NCBI RefSeq assembly: GCF_004104055.1
Contig: NZ_QOVJ01000011.1
Coordinates: forward strand, 1-64,000
Length of the DNA: 64,000 nucleotides
Direction: 5' to 3'
DNA from: Leeuwenhoekiella aestuarii
Lineage (GTDB): Bacteria > Bacteroidota > Bacteroidia > Flavobacteriales > Flavobacteriaceae
Made by a program: the position numbers and the translations under genes. Shown piece by piece: positions 52,477 to 60,511 of this stretch (its first letter is position 1; every line of letters begins with the position of its first letter). The notes beneath the pieces were generated by a model. The model saw nothing but the letters and a program-made list of their open reading frames with translations. It had not been told where the DNA came from and did no database searches.

Positions 52477-52536
52477 GCACAAAACTCATTACATCAACAC
52501 TAAATATATACCTATTCCCTCAAAATTTACAGGATA
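52477..52536. repeat. intergenic repeat copy C
   Basis: It matches copy B across ATCAACACTAAATATATA and the 19-base core (52512-52530), ending CAGGATATC. It lies 98 bp upstream of the hydrolase start. All three copies have the same orientation relative to a downstream minus-strand gene. Confidence 0.85.
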
Positions 52537-52873
52537 TCACTGCTTTGTGACGATGCTATCCGTTGAGATCTGATAAGACTTGAGGCTGTAATGTAAGATC
52601 GTGTGTAATCAAACCTGACTCACCTCGCAAACCATCCAGCCACTACCCTATCTCCATATCACATGAAGTTTCTTTTTGTTTTAGGACTGCTTTCTTTCAT
52701 AGCGCGGGCTTCTCAACAATATGCAATCTCTGCTCTCTGACATCGCTTATAATCTTAAGAAGTACCTCAAAACTTAAAAGCCGGTAGAAAGCGGATTAAG
52801 ATACCCAGCTTGTTTTTTAAATTTCGCACTGACTTTAAATCCGGATTACAAGTCCAGTTTAAAGACTTCATAA
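52537..52873. other. intergenic gap with worn repeat flank
   Basis: The first 120 bp continue the weak similarity between repeat copies B and C. Beyond that, no protein family is recognisable. Confidence 0.35.
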
Positions 52874-53031
52874 TTAAAAATGTATATACTTAAGCTTATT
52901 TTCATGTGAACAGTCATGACATTGGCATATTTCACAGAACCATCACTATTGGTAACTTGATGTATACGTTTTTCTTCCAATAAGCGATCAAGAACTCTGT
53001 AAATGGTGACTCGGTTACAAAATCCGTCAGG
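52874..53031 (-). pseudogene. Fur/Zur family regulator remnant
   Basis: The minus strand encodes NRVTIYRVLDRLLEEKRIHQ and VTNSDGSVKYA, the DNA-recognition helix and wing of Fur-type regulators. A one-base frameshift then leads to QCHDCSHENKLKYIHF, carrying the Cys-x2-Cys zinc motif region, before a TAA at 52874-52876. Stops also precede the conserved part. The gene is dead. Its position beside a zinc-type operon suggests it was the local Zur. Confidence 0.82.
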
Positions 53032-53133
53032 TTACGTTGCTTGTATTTATGCCTGAGATCATGCGACCTCAGATGAATTTATACTCTTTAAAATTGCTTT
53101 ATAGCTACGGCCTTTCTTATCAGTAAAATTTAT

Positions 53134-53217
53134 TGCAACAATGTTGCTTAAACAAAAATAGAAATTATATGTTTGCAACATTGTTGCTTTATTACCAATT
53201 TAAGCAACATCAAATTG
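53134..53217. promoter_or_regulatory. three phased palindromes, probable Zur/Fur-type operators
   Basis: GCAACA-A-TGTTGC (53134-53146) and GCAACA-T-TGTTGC (53174-53186) are perfect 13-bp palindromes with centres 40 bp apart. A weaker GCAAC-n5-ATTGC site (53203-53217) is centred 30 bp further. The spacings are whole helical turns. They lie 31-114 bp upstream of the first gene of the putative zinc operon, where a repressor would block its promoter. That the regulator is Zur is inferred from gene content. Confidence 0.72.
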
Positions 53218-53247
53218 CTCTCAGCCATTTTTACAAGTTAACAATAA

Positions 53248-53550
53248 ATGATGACCGCACGAATAAAACAGAGTATTTCGCTTTTATTCTTGGCCTTTTT
53301 TCTCACTACGAAATTGGCCGGTCTTCACGTATTTACGCATGACGATACCGATGTAAATGACGACTGTGCTATTTGCCACGTCTGGGTTACCGAGCAGCAG
53401 ACTGCAATAATTCTACAAAAAGCAGCTGAATTTGTTCCTGAAGCCTGCTATCCTGTATTTCTAGAAAGGCAGCACGTAAACCGAACTATAGTTTACAAAG
53501 GAAGTTCACACTCCTACCATCTATTCTCGCGGCCTCCTCCACAGATTTAG
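53248..53550 (+). CDS. small exported CxxCH protein at the head of the zinc-type operon
   Basis: A 100-residue protein with a signal-like hydrophobic N-terminus (about 8-25). It continues FTHDDTDVNDDCAICHVW, a cluster of His, Asp and Cys (DDCAICH) able to bind a metal. The C-terminus is Pro-rich (RPPPQI). I do not know a named family. Small proteins of this kind precede TonB receptors in related bacteria. The palindromic operators end 31 bp upstream, so it should be the first gene controlled by them. ATG ATG at the start leaves one codon uncertain. Confidence 0.7.
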   Translation: MMTARIKQSISLLFLAFFLTTKLAGLHVFTHDDTDVNDDCAICHVWVTEQQTAIILQKAAEFVPEACYPVFLERQHVNRTIVYKGSSHSYHLFSRPPPQI

Positions 53551-53746
53551 ATTTTCATTTCATTATTGCAGGGCTAGGCCCTCCAAAGCAATCGTATGTA
53601 TTTCATTTGATTTAGCCGTTAAAAGAATTAACGTATGTATTAATATGTCTTCGGCTGACCCCTGCAATTCTACCAAATAAGCTTTACTCTCTAGTAAGGC
53701 TCTTGTAAAAAACATTTTTCTACTTACTACTTTTTTGTAAAACCTT
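53551..53746. other. short leader before the TonB receptor
   Basis: A 196-bp AT-rich spacer. GGGCTAGGCCC (53571-53581) is a short inverted repeat just after the preceding stop codon and may reduce read-through. A second promoter for the receptor is possible. Confidence 0.35.
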
Positions 53747-56110
53747 ATGGTTATTAGATTGTTAATGCTGTCTCTTGTCCTGAACTTGAGCGTATGCGCT
53801 ATTGCCCAACAAACTTCAATTATAGAAGGTTCTGTTGTAGATTCAGTTTCCTTAAAGCCACTTTCGGGAGTCACAATTCTAGGAACTGATTCCTATGCTG
53901 TTACCAATGATTTAGGCGAGTTTCAACTGAAATTACCTGAAAAATCGCAGGTTTTTGAGGTTTCGCATTTGGGTTACGCTTCTGCAAAATTTACCCTTAT
54001 CGCTTCCCGGAATGCACCGCTGGTCATCAAACTTAAACCCAGCAGCACCGCTCTTGACGAGGTTTCTGTAAACGGAAAAACCAATATGCGCCTCCAAAAG
54101 GAATCGGCAACGGTTTCAGTATCGGTAGATGAAGCATTTCTTAATGCCAATCGCGAAAACAGCCTGATGCAAACACTTAGAAAAATTCCTGGGGTAAGCA
54201 CGATGACTATTGGCTCCGGGCAATCTAAACCTACGATCAGGGGATTAGGATTTAATCGGGTTAGTGTGGTTCAAAACGGGATCAAGCACGAGGCGCAACA
54301 ATGGGGCAGCGATCATGGACTCGAAATTGACCAATACGGTATTCAGGATATTCGCATTATAAAAGGTCCGGCCTCTTTAATGTATGGCTCTGATGCCATT
54401 GCGGGTGTCGTTGATATTCAACCTTCAAAAGCACCTGCGATCAATTCGTTTGGTGGAGAAGTCAATATTCTGGGGGAAACCAATAACGACCTTCTCGCAG
54501 TCTCAGCAGGCGTGCAAGGCAGAAAGAAAAAATGGTATTATCGTGCACGGCTCACCTATCGTGATTATGCTGACTTTAAAGTGCCTACTGACCGCATCAA
54601 TTATGAGAATTATGTTTTTAAGTTATATGACAACGATTTAAGAAATACCGCGGGTCGCGAAGCAAATGGAAGTTTCAGCTTTGGATATGTGAGCGCCAAT
54701 TTCAGGTCTGAAACCTTTGTAAGCAATGTCAATGCAAAAAATGGATTTTTCGCCAACGCACATGGACTTGAGGTACGTTCTTCAAGAATTGATTATGACG
54801 CCTCAAACCGGGATATTGATCTACCTTTTCACCAGGTAAATCACCTTAAAGTCACTAATAATACCACGGTAAATCTAGATGAGCATACGTTGCATTTTGA
54901 TCTGGGCTATCAAAACAATCAGCGGGAAGAACATTCAGAACCGGTGCCGCACGGGTATATGCCTACGCCGCCCAACAGCAGAGAACGCGTATTTACCAAG
55001 AACACGTATTCGCTAAATGTTAAGGATATTTTTAAAATTGAAAAGCATACGCTTTCCGCAGGTATCAATACCGAATTGCAAAACAACAACATTGGCGGTT
55101 GGGGATTTTTGATCCCTGCATACGACCGTTATACTGCCGGCGCCTATTTGTTTGATCATTTTGAACTTACTGAAGACCTGCACCTGCAAGGCGGGTTGCG
55201 TTTTGACGCAGGCCGCGTAAATACCAAATCACATTACGACTGGTACCGCTCTCCACGCAATAATCCTGATGGATCAACTTCTAACGTGTATTTGCAACGC
55301 GCAGAAAACAGAACGCTTGATTTTGGAAGTTTTAGCGGTTCGGTTGGCATTAGCTATATCCACGGAAATACCACCTATAAACTGAATGCTGGCAAGAGTT
55401 TTAGAATGCCACTTGCGCACGAACTTGCTTCAGACGGGGTGAATTACCATATGTATCGCTACGAGCGCGGAAATCTTGACCTAGAGCCTGAAGCCTCATA
55501 CCAATTAGACGCCGAAGTGACTCATACGAGTGGCAGGTTCAATTTTGGAGTAAGTCCGTTTCTCAACTACTTTGAAAATTACATCTACCTCAACCCTACT
55601 TCAAACTATTTTGAAACGCTTCAGATCTATGAATACACACAAGCCAAGGTATTCAGAACCGGTGGTGAAGTCGCTGCAGGAATGCAGGTAACGGAAGATT
55701 TTCGTTTAGACGCCACCGCAGAATATGTGTACTCAAGACAAACCAGCGGTCCTAAAGAGGGATTTACGATTCCGTTTTCTCCGCCATTAATCGGAATGCT
55801 TTCCGCAAATTATAATCTGGGCAATTGGAGTCTTTTTAAAGATGTGAATCTTAATGCAGATTTACGCGTCGCAGCAGCACAAACAGACATTGTTCCTCCG
55901 GAAGAGATCACAGCGGGTTACCAAATGCTCAACCTAGCCGTGATGAGTAAGCTCAACCTGTTTAATAATCAAAACAACCCCACCTTGTTGCGAATAAAAC
56001 TCAACAATGTGTTCAATACCGAATATTACGATCATACCAGCTTTTACAGGCTCATCGATGTCCCTGAAGCCGGTAGAAACCTATCGGTTTCATTAACCAT
56101 GCCTTTTTAA
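53747..56110 (+). CDS. TonB-dependent outer-membrane receptor, ZnuD-like
   Basis: A 787-residue receptor with a signal peptide (about 1-21, CAIAQQ), a carboxypeptidase-regulatory-like domain (about 27-105, IIEGSVVDSVSLKPLSGVTI), a plug (MQTLRKIPGVSTM, IIKGPASLMYGSDAIAG) and a barrel ending SVSLTMPF. His/Asp-rich stretches occur in the plug (QQWGSDHGLEID) and in an extracellular-loop position (NQREEHSEPVPHGYMP), consistent with zinc-binding ZnuD-type receptors. It belongs to one operon with His-rich lipoproteins and an AztD-like protein. Metal specificity is inferred, not proven. Confidence 0.9.
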   Translation: MVIRLLMLSLVLNLSVCAIAQQTSIIEGSVVDSVSLKPLSGVTILGTDSYAVTNDLGEFQLKLPEKSQVFEVSHLGYASAKFTLIASRNAPLVIKLKPSSTALDEVSVNGKTNMRLQKESATVSVSVDEAFLNANRENSLMQTLRKIPGVSTMTIGSGQSKPTIRGLGFNRVSVVQNGIKHEAQQWGSDHGLEIDQYGIQDIRIIKGPASLMYGSDAIAGVVDIQPSKAPAINSFGGEVNILGETNNDLLAVSAGVQGRKKKWYYRARLTYRDYADFKVPTDRINYENYVFKLYDNDLRNTAGREANGSFSFGYVSANFRSETFVSNVNAKNGFFANAHGLEVRSSRIDYDASNRDIDLPFHQVNHLKVTNNTTVNLDEHTLHFDLGYQNNQREEHSEPVPHGYMPTPPNSRERVFTKNTYSLNVKDIFKIEKHTLSAGINTELQNNNIGGWGFLIPAYDRYTAGAYLFDHFELTEDLHLQGGLRFDAGRVNTKSHYDWYRSPRNNPDGSTSNVYLQRAENRTLDFGSFSGSVGISYIHGNTTYKLNAGKSFRMPLAHELASDGVNYHMYRYERGNLDLEPEASYQLDAEVTHTSGRFNFGVSPFLNYFENYIYLNPTSNYFETLQIYEYTQAKVFRTGGEVAAGMQVTEDFRLDATAEYVYSRQTSGPKEGFTIPFSPPLIGMLSANYNLGNWSLFKDVNLNADLRVAAAQTDIVPPEEITAGYQMLNLAVMSKLNLFNNQNNPTLLRIKLNNVFNTEYYDHTSFYRLIDVPEAGRNLSVSLTMPF

Positions 56111-56148
56111 ACTCTTTTATTAATTAATAAACACTAAATCTAAATTTT

Positions 56149-56925
56149 ATGAAACTAAACATTAAACACTTAGCCTTTTTTGTACTATCGGGCATCACTT
56201 TGAGCTCGTGTAGCGATGACGACAATGAACTTGTCGTAGAAGAAGCTCCTGTTATCTCAAACTTTGAGTTTGGAGAAGGAAGCTCACACGGTGATGAGCA
56301 GGTAGCTTATAAAGGATCTGACATTCACTTAGAAGCAGAGATTGTTGCTGAAGCAACGGTAAGCAGCATTGCTCTTGACATTCATGCACACGACCTTGAA
56401 GTAGGTGAAGGTGAAGAAGAATGGGATTTTGAGCAAATCTGGGATGATGCCGAATATCAGGCCATTAATCCTACTTTTCATGAGCATATAGATGTTCCTG
56501 CAACTGCACCAGCTGGTGAATACCACATCACTTTGACGGTAACTGATGCCAATGGAAACAGCACCGAAGTAGAAGGTCATATTCATATAGAGGACCCGAT
56601 CTCAATTAGCGATATTTCCATAGACGAAAGTGTAGCGCGTGGTAATGATTTTCACGCTGAATTTATGATCGAAGCAATACATGGCGTGCATCACGTAGTG
56701 GTTGACATCCACGCACACGGATTGACTGTAGGTGCCGGTGAAGTAGAATGGGATTTTGAGCAGGAATTTGAAGAAGGTCTTCATGAGGAAACTTCAGTAG
56801 AATTTCACGAGCATATTGATGTTCCTGCTACTGCGCCAGTAGGTGAATACCACATGCTTATCACTATTGAAGATGAAGAGGGTAATACGCAGGAGATCGA
56901 CACGCATATTGACGTAACAGCATAA
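56149..56925 (+). CDS. His-rich lipoprotein with two DUF4625 domains
   Basis: A 258-residue lipoprotein (lipobox LSSC, Cys about 21). It contains two tandem repeats of one domain, roughly residues 35-148 and 149-258. Both carry DIHAHxL, then EWDFEQ, then FHEHIDVPATAPxGEYH. The alternating His and acidic residues form plausible metal sites. DUF4625 is a Bacteroidota beta-sandwich family of unknown function. It follows the TonB receptor by 38 bp and probably works as a surface or periplasmic metal-binding partner. Confidence 0.88.
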   Translation: MKLNIKHLAFFVLSGITLSSCSDDDNELVVEEAPVISNFEFGEGSSHGDEQVAYKGSDIHLEAEIVAEATVSSIALDIHAHDLEVGEGEEEWDFEQIWDDAEYQAINPTFHEHIDVPATAPAGEYHITLTVTDANGNSTEVEGHIHIEDPISISDISIDESVARGNDFHAEFMIEAIHGVHHVVVDIHAHGLTVGAGEVEWDFEQEFEEGLHEETSVEFHEHIDVPATAPVGEYHMLITIEDEEGNTQEIDTHIDVTA

Positions 56926-56937
56926 TCTTATAATAAT

Positions 56938-56970
56938 AGCCAGATGCCTGCGATGTGTAGGCATCTGGCT
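56938..56970 (+). terminator. 11-bp stem hairpin inside the operon
   Basis: AGCCAGATGCC (56938-56948) pairs perfectly with GGCATCTGGCT (56960-56970) around an 11-nt loop, 12 bp after the stop codon. The following run is A-rich, not U-rich, so it may act as a partial terminator or an mRNA stabiliser that sets the ratio of upstream to downstream products. Confidence 0.55.
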
Positions 56971-56988
56971 TTAAGCCAAATAAAAAAA

Positions 56989-57462
56989 ATGAGAAGAATT
57001 ATAATCGCCACAGTAGCTTTTATCGCATTGCTTACCAGTGCATGTTCCTCTGACAGCGACACTACTACAGATGAGATTAAACCTACGATCACCATTAACT
57101 ATGCTGAAGGTTTTCCGCAGGCATGCGCCACCTTAAAGCGTGGTGAGATCTACACCTTTAAAGCGAAGATAACAGATAATGTTGCCCTTGCCGCATACAG
57201 TCTTAATCTGCACCACAACTTTGACCATCATACGCATGATGATCAAGGCGCACAATGTGATCTTGAAGAAATCAAGCAAGCTATAAATCCGCTTATTTAT
57301 ATGGAAAACTTTAGCCTAAGCGGGCAAACTGAATATGAGATCGAGATCTCGGTAAGCATACCTAATGATATTGACACAGGCGATTACCACTGTTCATACT
57401 CCGTAACAGATGAAACCGGATGGCAAAGCAGAACTTCTAGTGATATTAAAATCATTGAGTAA
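56989..57462 (+). CDS. DUF4625 lipoprotein, His-rich
   Basis: A 157-residue lipoprotein from the ATG at 56989 (MRRIIIATVAFIALLTSAC); an upstream ATG at 56944 lies inside the hairpin and is rejected. One DUF4625-like domain follows, with HHNFDHHTHDD as a dense His cluster and two extra cysteines (ACATLKR, QCDLEE). The C-terminal IPNDIDTGDYHCSYSVTDETG is the family strand. A metal-binding role is inferred from the His cluster and the neighbours. Confidence 0.85.
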   Translation: MRRIIIATVAFIALLTSACSSDSDTTTDEIKPTITINYAEGFPQACATLKRGEIYTFKAKITDNVALAAYSLNLHHNFDHHTHDDQGAQCDLEEIKQAINPLIYMENFSLSGQTEYEIEISVSIPNDIDTGDYHCSYSVTDETGWQSRTSSDIKIIE

Positions 57463-57504
57463 TTCACCACTCTATAAACACATACCTTTAATCAATTCAA
57501 CACT

Positions 57505-58731
57505 ATGAAAACCAAACAATTAAAATTTTTAGTCCTTTTATTCCTTTTTATATCAGCAGTATCCTGCTCAAATGACGATGATATGAACCAGGAGGACCAA
57601 GAAAATCACAATCCCGAATATCACGGGAATGTATCCCTATTAGTTTCTGATGCGAATTCGACGGCACTCAATTTCATCAATCCATTTAATTCAGAAATTC
57701 AAACCTTCCAGGCATCTTTCCCCAAAGGGGTCGTTTATGTTACCCAATCTGGTCTTTATGGAATAATCACACATAGAGAACACGATTTTACTGAAACTTT
57801 TAATTTAGGAGGTGAGATAGATCACGGCGATCATAGTCATAGTCTCGGTGAAACCGGATTGACAGACACTAATTTTGAAAGTATGAAACCAACACATTTT
57901 AAATCTGAACAGGGTTACGTGGCGGTTTATAATGATGGAGATGCAACGCTTAGTTTATTCAAAGAAAATGATATAAACGGAGGAGCAAGCGTTTCTAATA
58001 TCGCTACAGGAACAGCGGCACATCACGGTGCAATGGTGATCTTTGATAATGGTAACATCGCCGTTACCAACCTTGGTTCTGGAATAAGTCTACCTGAAAA
58101 AGTTCATATCATTAATCAGCAGGGAGAAGTGATCTCTCAGGAAGAGCAAAGTTTAAGTACTTCTGGAATTCATGGAAGTGCAGGTAATGATGATACGGCT
58201 ATTTTTGGAGCAGCTTCAGGCATTTTAGTGGTGCAGGATAATGGAGACCAGCGCATCATTGATTACCCTGAAAGTTTTGAAGAAGGAGTATGGTTTGGAA
58301 GTATACTTGCTACAAACGAGCCTGATCTATTCATAGGATATACGGCCGCAAAAGGAGTATATTTTATCGATATATCTACTGAAGAGGTTACGCCTTTATT
58401 AGAAACTTCAGATTTATTCAAATGCATGGTTTCTTTGGATGGAAACGAAGTGGTGAGCTTAACGAAAACTGGATCATTTACAATTACTGAAGTTTCTACC
58501 CAAGAACATGTATATACCGGAACTATGGGGATCACTCTGGATACTGAATCTGCTGATCATAGCTCAATAACCAGCAATGTTGATTATTTTGAAGACTATT
58601 TATTTGTCTCTATTCCTACTTCAAATAAGATCATACAGTATAACCTTTCAGAAATGAATATTGAAAAGGAATATGATCTTGACATAACCCCCTACCAATT
58701 CAAGGTGTTATCCTATGATATCGCTCATTAA
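57505..58731 (+). CDS. AztD-like zinc metallochaperone lipoprotein (beta-propeller)
   Basis: A 408-residue lipoprotein (lipobox AVSC, Cys about 21). A His-rich loop (EIDHGDHSHSLGE) is followed by repeated beta-propeller blades. Blades with AAHHGAMVIFDNGNIAVT, then GIHGSAGNDDTAIFG and GILVVQDNG, match the layout of the AztD zinc metallochaperone (HHG...; HGE...; FGC.DGV). The cysteines AztD has near those motifs are absent. AztD delivers zinc to a periplasmic binding protein. Here the protein is lipid-anchored and tied to a TonB receptor, so it may capture zinc at the outer membrane. The assignment rests on motifs recognised by eye. Confidence 0.78.
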   Translation: MKTKQLKFLVLLFLFISAVSCSNDDDMNQEDQENHNPEYHGNVSLLVSDANSTALNFINPFNSEIQTFQASFPKGVVYVTQSGLYGIITHREHDFTETFNLGGEIDHGDHSHSLGETGLTDTNFESMKPTHFKSEQGYVAVYNDGDATLSLFKENDINGGASVSNIATGTAAHHGAMVIFDNGNIAVTNLGSGISLPEKVHIINQQGEVISQEEQSLSTSGIHGSAGNDDTAIFGAASGILVVQDNGDQRIIDYPESFEEGVWFGSILATNEPDLFIGYTAAKGVYFIDISTEEVTPLLETSDLFKCMVSLDGNEVVSLTKTGSFTITEVSTQEHVYTGTMGITLDTESADHSSITSNVDYFEDYLFVSIPTSNKIIQYNLSEMNIEKEYDLDITPYQFKVLSYDIAH

Positions 58732-58749
58732 ACTATTTGTTGTAAATCA

Positions 58750-59640
58750 ATGAAAACAACAAAATTTTTAGCCCTGCTCTTCGTGAGCCTGTTTACCATT
58801 ACTGCCTGTACTAACGATGACGACGAGATAATTCTTGAAGAACCCACCATAAGTGATGTTGAAGTAGGTTTAAACAACAATGAGATTGGGGTAATTGGAC
58901 GGGATTTTCACCTGAATGCAGAACTAATTGCTGGTGATAAAATTGATTTGGTAAAAGTCAGCATAACACCTAAAATAGGCGAAGCTTACACCTCGGATTG
59001 GTCCTTTGAAATCACATTTGATGAGTTTAAAGGTGCCAAAAATGCTACGGTACATAAGCACTTTGACATTCCGGAAGATGCGCCGGAAGGCGTATTTGAT
59101 TTTATCATTACCGTTACCGATGAGAATGGGACTTCTCTAGAAGAAACACGAGATATTAAAATTTATGCTCCAGAGAATCTCCCGGTGGATCCCCAATTAT
59201 ATGCTATGTACACCTATAAAAATGAGATGTACATAGAAGTTCCTTCAGAAACTAAATTTACAAAAAAGGATACCCTAAAATCACAATCATTCATTAGCGG
59301 GGTAAAAGGAGATGGTAAAATGTATCTTTTACTAATTAATAAAAAGCATAATCACCGTCCGGAAAGCATTGATAACATTGATTTCTCTAAGGCCATTGTT
59401 TATGATGTTTCAGAACATAAAAATGAAGAAGAGGTATTTACTGCTAACAATCATCTTTATTATGAAGTTCCAAGTTTAATAATTGGGGCCACCAATGATA
59501 ATGATGCACCACAACCTAATTCTATTGAAGGTGATAAAAGCTGGGACAACGGGGAATATTATTTTGGTGTAGTTTACACTAATACTACCTATAATATCAG
59601 TGTTTATCACTACACAGAAATAACACTTACAGGTTTCTAG
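58750..59640 (+). CDS. DUF4625 lipoprotein with C-terminal extension
   Basis: A 296-residue lipoprotein (lipobox ITAC, Cys about 20) with an N-terminal DUF4625 domain (about 30-145; TVHKHFDIPEDAPEGVFDF is the family hallmark). A distinct C-terminal domain of about 150 residues follows (MYTYKNEMYIEVPSETKF, YYFGVVYTNTTYNISVY), unlike the other two DUF4625 proteins. It is not His-rich. It starts 18 bp after the AztD-like gene and is the last gene before a strong terminator. Confidence 0.85.
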   Translation: MKTTKFLALLFVSLFTITACTNDDDEIILEEPTISDVEVGLNNNEIGVIGRDFHLNAELIAGDKIDLVKVSITPKIGEAYTSDWSFEITFDEFKGAKNATVHKHFDIPEDAPEGVFDFIITVTDENGTSLEETRDIKIYAPENLPVDPQLYAMYTYKNEMYIEVPSETKFTKKDTLKSQSFISGVKGDGKMYLLLINKKHNHRPESIDNIDFSKAIVYDVSEHKNEEEVFTANNHLYYEVPSLIIGATNDNDAPQPNSIEGDKSWDNGEYYFGVVYTNTTYNISVYHYTEITLTGF

Positions 59641-59661
59641 ATTCCTTTAATATTTCAAAGA

Positions 59662-59688
59662 AAAAAGCCCGCTCATCGCGGGCTTTTT
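59662..59688 (+). terminator. intrinsic terminator of the zinc-type operon
   Basis: AAAAAGCCCGC (59662-59672) pairs with GCGGGCTTTTT (59678-59688) around a 5-nt loop, ending in a T run. It is a textbook rho-independent terminator 21 bp after the last stop codon. Confidence 0.93.
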
Positions 59689-60094
59689 CCATAAAATTAA
59701 ATAATTCACTGTTTACAATTCACTAAGAAGGTAGTCACCCAGGCATTGGGTTGATAGCCCTAACCAAAGACATTAAGTGAAATGTGTTTCCTTTTAATTT
59801 TAAATATAATTCACTATAAATGGAATAAGCTACTTTAACAAAATAAAGTAGCCTATTCCTTATTTAGATCTAGCTTGCGAGCGTTTTTTAGATTCTCTCA
59901 TACATCAGTCAAAACTAACCTCTTCCCTTTAAAACGGACTGATTAATGTTAGCATACTATCTTAAAGTAAATTTTTAATTTAAAGAGCTAACGTACATGT
60001 ATACCAATAACCAAGTAAGAGACTAATATGTATAACGATATTAGAGGAATATTCCATTCCTAGTTAGGAGCGGACCAGTTTACTCGACTCTAAT
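59689..60094. other. intergenic gap, nothing recognised
   Basis: A 406-bp AT-rich gap between the operon terminator and the convergent VOC gene. No coding remnant or further hairpin is convincing. Confidence 0.4.
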
Positions 60095-60511
60095 CTAATG
60101 CTTATTTTTACTTTCAAATTTTTTGATTGTTTCAGGAGTTACTGGTGTAAATAAATTAACCAAATTACCATCAGGATCCCGGAATAAAAGCGATTTATTT
60201 CCCCAAGGCATTGTAGTTGGTTTCTGAACCATGTAAGGTTTTAAGAAATCAGCCAATCTTTTATAATCTTTTTCTACATCATCTACTAAAAACTCAATAA
60301 TAGCACTGCGATTTTGTGAAGCCTGTGCAACATCTTCTCCTCCAAAAAAATGTAATGTTCTTGTGCTTCCTATAGCTAAGGTTGCTGTTTTTGTTTGTAG
60401 CTCAGCAAAATCAGGTGTGAATTGCACTACCGGCATACCTGTAATATGCTCATAAAATTTCACTAAGCCATTTAAATCGGCAGTAATAATGCGAATGGAT
60501 ACTAAATTCAT
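60095..60511 (-). CDS. VOC (glyoxalase/bleomycin-resistance fold) protein
   Basis: A 138-residue protein with two beta-alpha-beta-beta-beta units: IRIITADLNGLVKFYEHITGMP and IEFLVDDVEKDYKRLADFL. The end LLFRDPDGNLVNLFTP carries the typical FRDPDGN motif. Metal ligands cannot be assigned, and it may be a binding protein or a dioxygenase-like enzyme. It lies 39 bp downstream of a WYL regulator gene on the same strand, probably an operon. Confidence 0.9.
   Translation of the reverse strand: MNLVSIRIITADLNGLVKFYEHITGMPVVQFTPDFAELQTKTATLAIGSTRTLHFFGGEDVAQASQNRSAIIEFLVDDVEKDYKRLADFLKPYMVQKPTTMPWGNKSLLFRDPDGNLVNLFTPVTPETIKKFESKNKH

Follow-up and report, generated by a model that had tools for sequence, protein, structure and literature searches.

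The 64,000-nt stretch of Leeuwenhoekiella aestuarii DNA analysed here (the window) contains, within positions 53248–59640, six plus-strand genes for a small exported protein, a TonB-dependent receptor, three lipoproteins of the DUF4625 family and a lipoprotein related to the zinc chaperone AztD, which we read as a candidate zinc uptake system. The genes are all at the positions given in an initial annotation of this DNA, and Pfam and NCBIfam matches together with the open reading frames confirm their predicted content. The source genome is of 4.43 Mb and 99.96% complete. The features of the locus are as follows.

52865–53120, minus strand: what is left of a regulator gene of the Fur family (Zur-like), decayed and pointing away from the operon, with approximate boundaries.
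53133–53149, no strand assigned: operator 1, TTGCAACAATGTTGCTT, with the exact core.
53168–53175, plus strand: TATGTTTG, which fits TANNTTTG and overlaps operator 2.
53173–53189, no strand assigned: operator 2, TTGCAACATTGTTGCTT, with the exact core.
53248–53550, plus strand: small exported protein, with invariant HxxxH...CxxC and a C-terminal RPPP.
53747–56110, plus strand: ZnuD-like TonB-dependent receptor, with Pfam plug and barrel domains and ZnuD as best solved relative.
56149–56925, plus strand: tandem DUF4625 lipoprotein, strongly His-rich, with SDDDN after the Cys (Pfam, His count).
56938–56970, plus strand: 14-bp RNA hairpin in the gap that follows the tandem DUF4625 gene and precedes the single-domain one, folding at -26.7 kcal/mol.
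56989–57462, plus strand: single-domain DUF4625 lipoprotein, H-x3-D-x-H-x-H ... DYHC (Pfam, motif, lipoprotein signal).
57505–58731, plus strand: AztD-like lipoprotein, a predicted propeller by its likeness to AztD, keeping the AztD zinc-ligand positions, C-terminal His408 included.
58750–59640, plus strand: another DUF4625 lipoprotein, which has an additional region at its C-terminus (Pfam).
59662–59688, plus strand: rho-independent terminator-like hairpin, visible in the sequence.

The operon is real and conserved. Its first intergenic gap measures 196 nt and the remainder 18 to 63 nt, and the terminator proposed in the initial annotation can be seen after the last gene, where the region 59645–59700 folds at -17.5 kcal/mol, though the hairpin was not among the hits of a consensus terminator scan. 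The start of the single-domain DUF4625 gene was set at the lipoprotein signal (56989; the open reading frame list has 56944), and the sequence slices used in searches with this protein began one or two codons after the chosen start. Matches to DUF4625 turned up in 36 of 119 relatives and in 22 of 395 genomes of the phylum, and a scan of named genomes gave at least 543 confirmed relatives of the single-domain protein, the best 80 loci of which (11 of them shorter than 18 kb) were analysed, a set that leans to close relatives. As raw counts, taken with no background rate, the receptor occurs in 78 of these 80 loci (the initial annotation had named the co-occurrence of DUF4625 and TonB receptor genes as a check); 73 have the small exported protein and 72 a tandem DUF4625, and there are Zur-like genes in 39, MerC-like genes in 20, FolE in nine and CobW/ZigA-like genes in eight. 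The Zur-like tag denotes blastp matches with E ≤ 1e-5 to several Fur-family exemplars and possibly includes other Fur-family genes. FolE scored over its model cut-off in the cluster of a relative. Additionally, a related receptor (29–32% identical), DUF4625 and a Zur-like gene are found together in the order-level relatives L065, L066, L067 and L070, and such a trio also occurs in the more distant L202 and L203; in L079, DUF4625 and a Zur-like gene are accompanied by a box with one mismatch, and the hits include no receptor. A zinc system is less well served by the mostly weak DUF4625 matches of distant genomes at L069, L071, L072, L074, L075, L076, L078, L084, L205 and L206, where the hits beside DUF4625 include no such receptor or Zur-like gene. 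Genes that we take to encode an ABC-type ATPase and an FtsX-like permease appear in 23 and 18 of the 80 loci, respectively, near or in zinc clusters (L052, L055, L082 and others).

Upstream of the operon there are two 17-nt palindromic boxes, 40 nt apart, whose exact core, GCAACAWTGTTGC, has five copies in the whole 4.43-Mb genome, against none for a reversed-pattern control. With three mismatches allowed there were 25 genome sites versus 11 for the reversed control, and the looser sites are therefore less sure. Outside the operon, one core lies on contig C4, with a Fur-family gene on one side and, on the other, a second small CxxC gene and then a DUF4625 remnant; another precedes a MerC gene and a gene for a CobW-type GTPase, the best model for which is ZigA (505.6 bits; cut-off 600); and the fifth lies between a ZIP gene and a gene for a secreted protein. 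The ZIP gene, located behind Nramp and DtxR-type genes, precedes the box and is therefore not necessarily controlled by it. A box with two mismatches is also found just upstream of a second ZnuD-like receptor gene, 2 kb beyond the end of the window. Operators common to zinc-homeostasis genes, by which a Zur regulon is recognised, can be read from the sequence.

The box consensus from this genome is too strict for relatives, being found at up to two mismatches in eight of the 80 loci versus 15 of 80 for GCAAC-N3-GTTGC, which occurs 16 times in those 15 loci; 13 of the 16 sites are located at genes for the small exported protein, MerC or Zur-like regulators, or within the 400 nt upstream of them, and eight control palindromes of like composition occurred 0, 0, 0, 0, 0, 2, 1 and 0 times in the 80 loci. 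Furthermore, the TANNTTTG match, which we take to be the consensus of the Bacteroidota -7 promoter element, overlaps operator 2, and a match overlaps the box at four of 13 other box-like sites (C4, C15, L058 and L067). If that consensus applies, this overlap fits repression. Sigma-70 promoters were also considered and set aside, their predictions being no more frequent than in shuffled sequence.

The remnant at 52865–53120, whose translation contains stops, resembles by eye the intact Fur-family protein of contig C4. This locus has a decayed Zur-like gene and C4 an intact one, with the small CxxC gene and the DUF4625 remnant, as if they were two copies of one locus, each with different parts lost. 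The C4 regulator belongs to the Pfam FUR family (37.3 bits versus 23.1), and we call it Zur-like because of its regulon. Several results weigh against our reading of the operon as a zinc system: the regulator scores 37.8 bits with the Fur model, 34.4 with PerR and 28.9 with Zur (NF008646, cut-off 167), all far below cut-off; the exact core is present in five of the 13 genomes of the genus and missing from the other eight; and the core hits in G004 and G006 (L183, L185) fall inside other open frames. That the operator is common to the MerC gene, and that models do not place the regulator as Zur, could also suit a system for a metal other than zinc (copper or cobalt, for instance); this appears improbable to us, and the ZigA-like and FolE genes found in the same regulon or clusters argue against it. 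Taken in context, the data support zinc-type regulation of the operon.

The receptor has the Pfam plug and barrel domains and an extra N-terminal CarbopepD_reg_2 domain. Among solved structures its best relative is ZnuD of Neisseria (1.1e-20), and the next is the copper receptor OprC (4.7e-9); the presence of the latter in second place favours another metal, whereas the difference of more than 11 orders of magnitude in E-value disfavours it. The D189-H190 region of the receptor (plug SDH) aligns with the SPDH stretch of ZnuD, whose zinc site comprises D90, H100, E340 and H499 in the available text of PMC4557270, and the His aligned with H190 would, by our own reading, be H100. Four His residues (H190, H366, H402 and H763) are invariant in all 85 aligned receptors, eight of which are distant. 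Unlike ZnuD, however, the receptor carries the CarbopepD_reg_2 domain and comes with lipoproteins; it also misses the curated ZnuD cut-off (NF038289, 144.2 bits, E 5.7e-42; cut-off 950), which speaks against our reading, and membership in ZnuD proper is not supported. The initial annotation had described the receptor as having His loops. The TonB receptor was recovered, with its four invariant His, and the protein is not enriched in this residue (19 His of 787, p 0.11, binomial against a background of 1.8%). A visibly His-rich loop, HSHDHGHNHDH, belongs to another receptor, the second ZnuD-like protein mentioned above, of 822 aa and encoded just past the window (G000:C11:66156-68653; L081 4157-6654).

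The three DUF4625 genes encode four domains (PF15418), with scores of 193.2, 135.3 and 90.1 bits versus a cut-off of 27 and E-values of 2.6e-57 (for the protein with two domains), 2.1e-39 and 1.9e-25. Two of these proteins had been described as strongly His-rich, which holds for the tandem one (21 His in 258 aa, binomial 1e-8) and not for the other two, at 3.8% (p 0.06) and 2.7% (p 0.16); the background is 1.8% and none of 25 background lipoproteins reaches 3%. An alignment of 53 single-domain proteins shows no variation in a cluster of His and Asp, in two non-lipid Cys or in the DYH His. The motif H-x3-D-x-H-x-H is present in all 65 single-domain proteins with a recognised lipobox (76 loci have the gene) and in 13 of 14 further DUF4625 proteins, including those of order-level relatives, the exception being L079. 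The two invariant Cys besides the lipid one are a further point in favour of another metal. A diverged two-domain lipoprotein, distantly like tandem DUF4625, was also observed (L051 8012-8845, with NPHIHYH, and L055 9425-10267), and its relatives occur in ten of the 80 loci, partly beside or instead of tandem DUF4625.

Predicted models of DUF4625 are confident (pLDDT 87.7 and 88.9), and fold searches with them yielded generic Ig-like and similar sandwich matches only, which does not help a zinc-specific reading; likewise, a profile search of solved structures gave nothing below E 0.1. Since an Ig-like fold is typical of protein binding, and the ZnuD model is named as a zinc piracy receptor, the lipoproteins might instead strip zinc from foreign proteins or ligands rather than bind free zinc. 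This seems highly improbable, there being no candidate donor and the named genomes belonging to what we take to be largely free-living marine bacteria. The lipoproteins could also hold zinc in store, or out of reach, as a defence against its toxicity or against competitors, without feeding the receptor, in keeping with the His-rich tandem protein and with loci L061, L068 and L201, in which no such receptor stands beside DUF4625; we consider this very improbable, because uptake is favoured by starvation control of the Zur type and by the neighbouring receptor in all but two of the 80 loci. A link between DUF4625 and zinc is now backed by the shared operator and by wide conservation, and a zinc role for the family is supported by context. 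No paper on DUF4625 was found in the open-licence literature searched, most subscription papers lying outside the search.

The AztD-like protein matches solved AztD structures (6cmk, 2.1e-13; 6ck1, 2e-6) and has a His content of 3.7% (p 0.007, binomial against a background of 1.8%). According to the available text of PMC6689063, site 1 of AztD is formed by His124, His167 and His218, and site 2 by His99, His102, Asp104 and the C-terminal His408. At these places the protein of the window shows H131, H173/H174 and H223, as well as H107, H110 and H112, and its last residue is H408. The positions of both sites are kept in 12 of 12 aligned proteins (window, L094–L097 and L192–L198, leaving out two weak matches and a fusion), with His or Asp at the position of Asp104 and a C-terminal His in all 12. 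These kept ligands also argue against another metal. In G033 there is a fusion of 530 aa (L051 9398-10990) in which a DUF4625 domain is joined to an AztD-like region (E 3e-5; AztD model 0.0012); it keeps His residues of site 2 and lacks two of site 1. On the other side, the window protein scores 83.7 bits (E 1e-23) with the AztD model NF038015 and misses its curated cut-off of 400, such that its designation as AztD proper is not supported.

The distribution of the AztD-like gene is narrow. It was matched in seven of 299 family genomes, two of them by short weak matches, and in none of the 80 named loci, from which it follows that this gene is not a general part of the operon. The gene lies in the operon here, in G314 and in eight of nine sampled DUF4625 genomes of genus g156 (the exception is G712), where it adjoins a receptor 43–47% identical. 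It stands alone in G271 and G286, and in the latter a box-like site with three mismatches lies about 56 nt upstream.

No match to PF01297, the family of ZnuA/AztC-type binding proteins, was found in the own genome of the operon, in any of the ten genomes with an operon-borne AztD-like gene, or in G033 and G712, whereas G271 and G286, with a lone AztD-like gene, each have one. Hence, where PF01297 is absent, the AztD-like protein has no such binding protein to serve, as AztD does with AztC. However, the family is likewise missing from the listed g156 genomes that have no DUF4625 match (10 of 10; more such genomes may exist) and from all 13 genomes of the window's genus; its absence is therefore a lineage trait and not a sign of replacement. 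Likewise, DUF4625 and ZnuA occur together in eight of the 119 relatives, for a chance expectation of ten. We thus found no support for the possibility that DUF4625 operons replace ZnuABC, with ZnuA absent from g156 genomes both with (9/9) and without (10/10) DUF4625 and co-occurrence in the 119 relatives near chance. The context does support an AztD-like protein tied to the receptor and not to an ABC importer. In sum, it is like AztD of AztABCD in sequence, in both zinc-site positions and in its C-terminal His, and unlike it in being a lipoprotein beside a TonB receptor, in a genome with no PF01297, and in scoring below the AztD cut-off (compared with the AztD described in PMC6689063).

All four lipoproteins bear short polar and acidic stretches after the lipobox Cys (SDDDN, SSDSD, SNDDD and TNDDD). 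They resemble the published export signals of surface lipoproteins, which include SDDDD and SDDFE (PMC5080379), and the acidic stretch after the Cys probably causes these proteins to be flipped to the cell surface. The same zinc system could also work with its lipoproteins facing the periplasm, where they would receive zinc from the receptor and act as a buffer, in the manner of AztD or ZinT. The leaflet is not settled by a lipobox on its own, and AztD of Gram-negative bacteria is described as predominantly periplasmic (PMC6689063). We deem this arrangement unlikely, given the Ser, Thr or Asn and acidic residues found right after the Cys in the four proteins, as in surface signals (PMC5080379), and the lack of a periplasmic partner of the PF01297 type. 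Residues of this kind after the lipobox Cys are, however, common in the phylum at large.

In the small exported protein, H27, H31, C40, C43 and RPPP are invariant among 74 aligned sequences, and no Pfam family scored over its cut-off. The initial annotation called it a CxxCH protein; CxxCH is present here, but only CxxC is conserved across the 74, and we rejected a haem reading of this motif for lack of conservation of its final His. Regarding RNA elements, the hairpin at 56938–56970 is a perfect 14-bp one with only three T after it, and might be a partial terminator or an mRNA stabiliser. A search of positions 52500–60200 against Rfam gave no match, and an RNA element in the 196-nt gap upstream of the receptor was discarded, with no Rfam match and little conservation among four relatives.

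A receptor that works together with a surface lipoprotein is the logic of SusC-SusD, and this much the operon would share. However, there was no SusD-like Pfam match among the operon proteins, and the SusC signature in the receptor reached 16.4 bits versus a cut-off of 46.2. The analogy to SusD drawn in the initial annotation gives way to a closer one with the vitamin B12 uptake system BtuB-BtuG of Bacteroides, in which a substrate-binding propeller lipoprotein forms the lid that caps the receptor, with helper lipoproteins such as BtuH (PMC10404256, which also compares SusC-SusD with BtuBG). As there, a TonB receptor is co-encoded with a lipid-anchored protein, here a predicted beta-propeller, and with helper lipoproteins; the differences are that the substrate is B12 there and would be zinc here, that the predicted propeller is of the AztD kind by sequence, and that the helpers are DUF4625 proteins. 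Receptor and lipoproteins are linked here by gene adjacency.

We therefore favour, as the likely reading, a Zur-repressed outer-membrane zinc receptor helped by zinc-binding lipoproteins and working like BtuB-BtuG. The gene content, its conservation, the shared operators, the kept ligand positions and the lack of a PF01297 match are observations, from which we infer zinc as the metal, zinc binding, repression, surface location, complex formation and hand-over to the receptor. With ample zinc, the two palindromes, of which operator 2 overlaps the likely -7 element, would be occupied by a Zur-type repressor from contig C4; when zinc is scarce, the promoter would be freed and the ZnuD-like receptor, the DUF4625 lipoproteins and the AztD-like lipoprotein would be made. 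The lipoproteins would bind zinc through their conserved His, Asp and Cys clusters and hand it to the plug site of the receptor, with TonB energy then pulling it in. The AztD-like protein would use the transfer site of AztD and pass its metal on to the receptor, given that the genome yielded no binding protein of the ZnuA/AztC type; the ZIP protein could then carry zinc across the inner membrane. The initial annotation named the parts correctly and was probably right about zinc. Of the system that it proposed, the zinc-type control, the role of DUF4625 in zinc handling and the tie between AztD-like protein and receptor are supported by context, through the shared operators, the clustering with FolE, the kept ligands and the missing PF01297, and the physical partnership of lipoproteins and receptor stays a working hypothesis. 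A more specific version, in which an AztD-type surface propeller would be the zinc-loaded lid of the ZnuD-like receptor and DUF4625 a zinc-binding relay, is offered tentatively, as we would give it somewhat less than an even chance. In the open-licence literature, with most subscription papers outside the search, no paper combined zinc uptake, TonB-dependent transport, Bacteroidota and surface lipoproteins, and none combined Zur, zinc, Bacteroides, TonB-dependent receptors and transcriptomics.

These results give DUF4625 a first likely function that can be tested, and present an AztD relative without its ABC partner. Additionally, the operator motif is a candidate for zinc control in these bacteria and makes the regulon predictable. 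The findings also suggest that lipoprotein-assisted uptake, established for glycans and B12, extends to a bare metal ion. If the AztD-like propeller is indeed a lid, a metallochaperone otherwise feeding an ABC importer would have been re-used one membrane further out.

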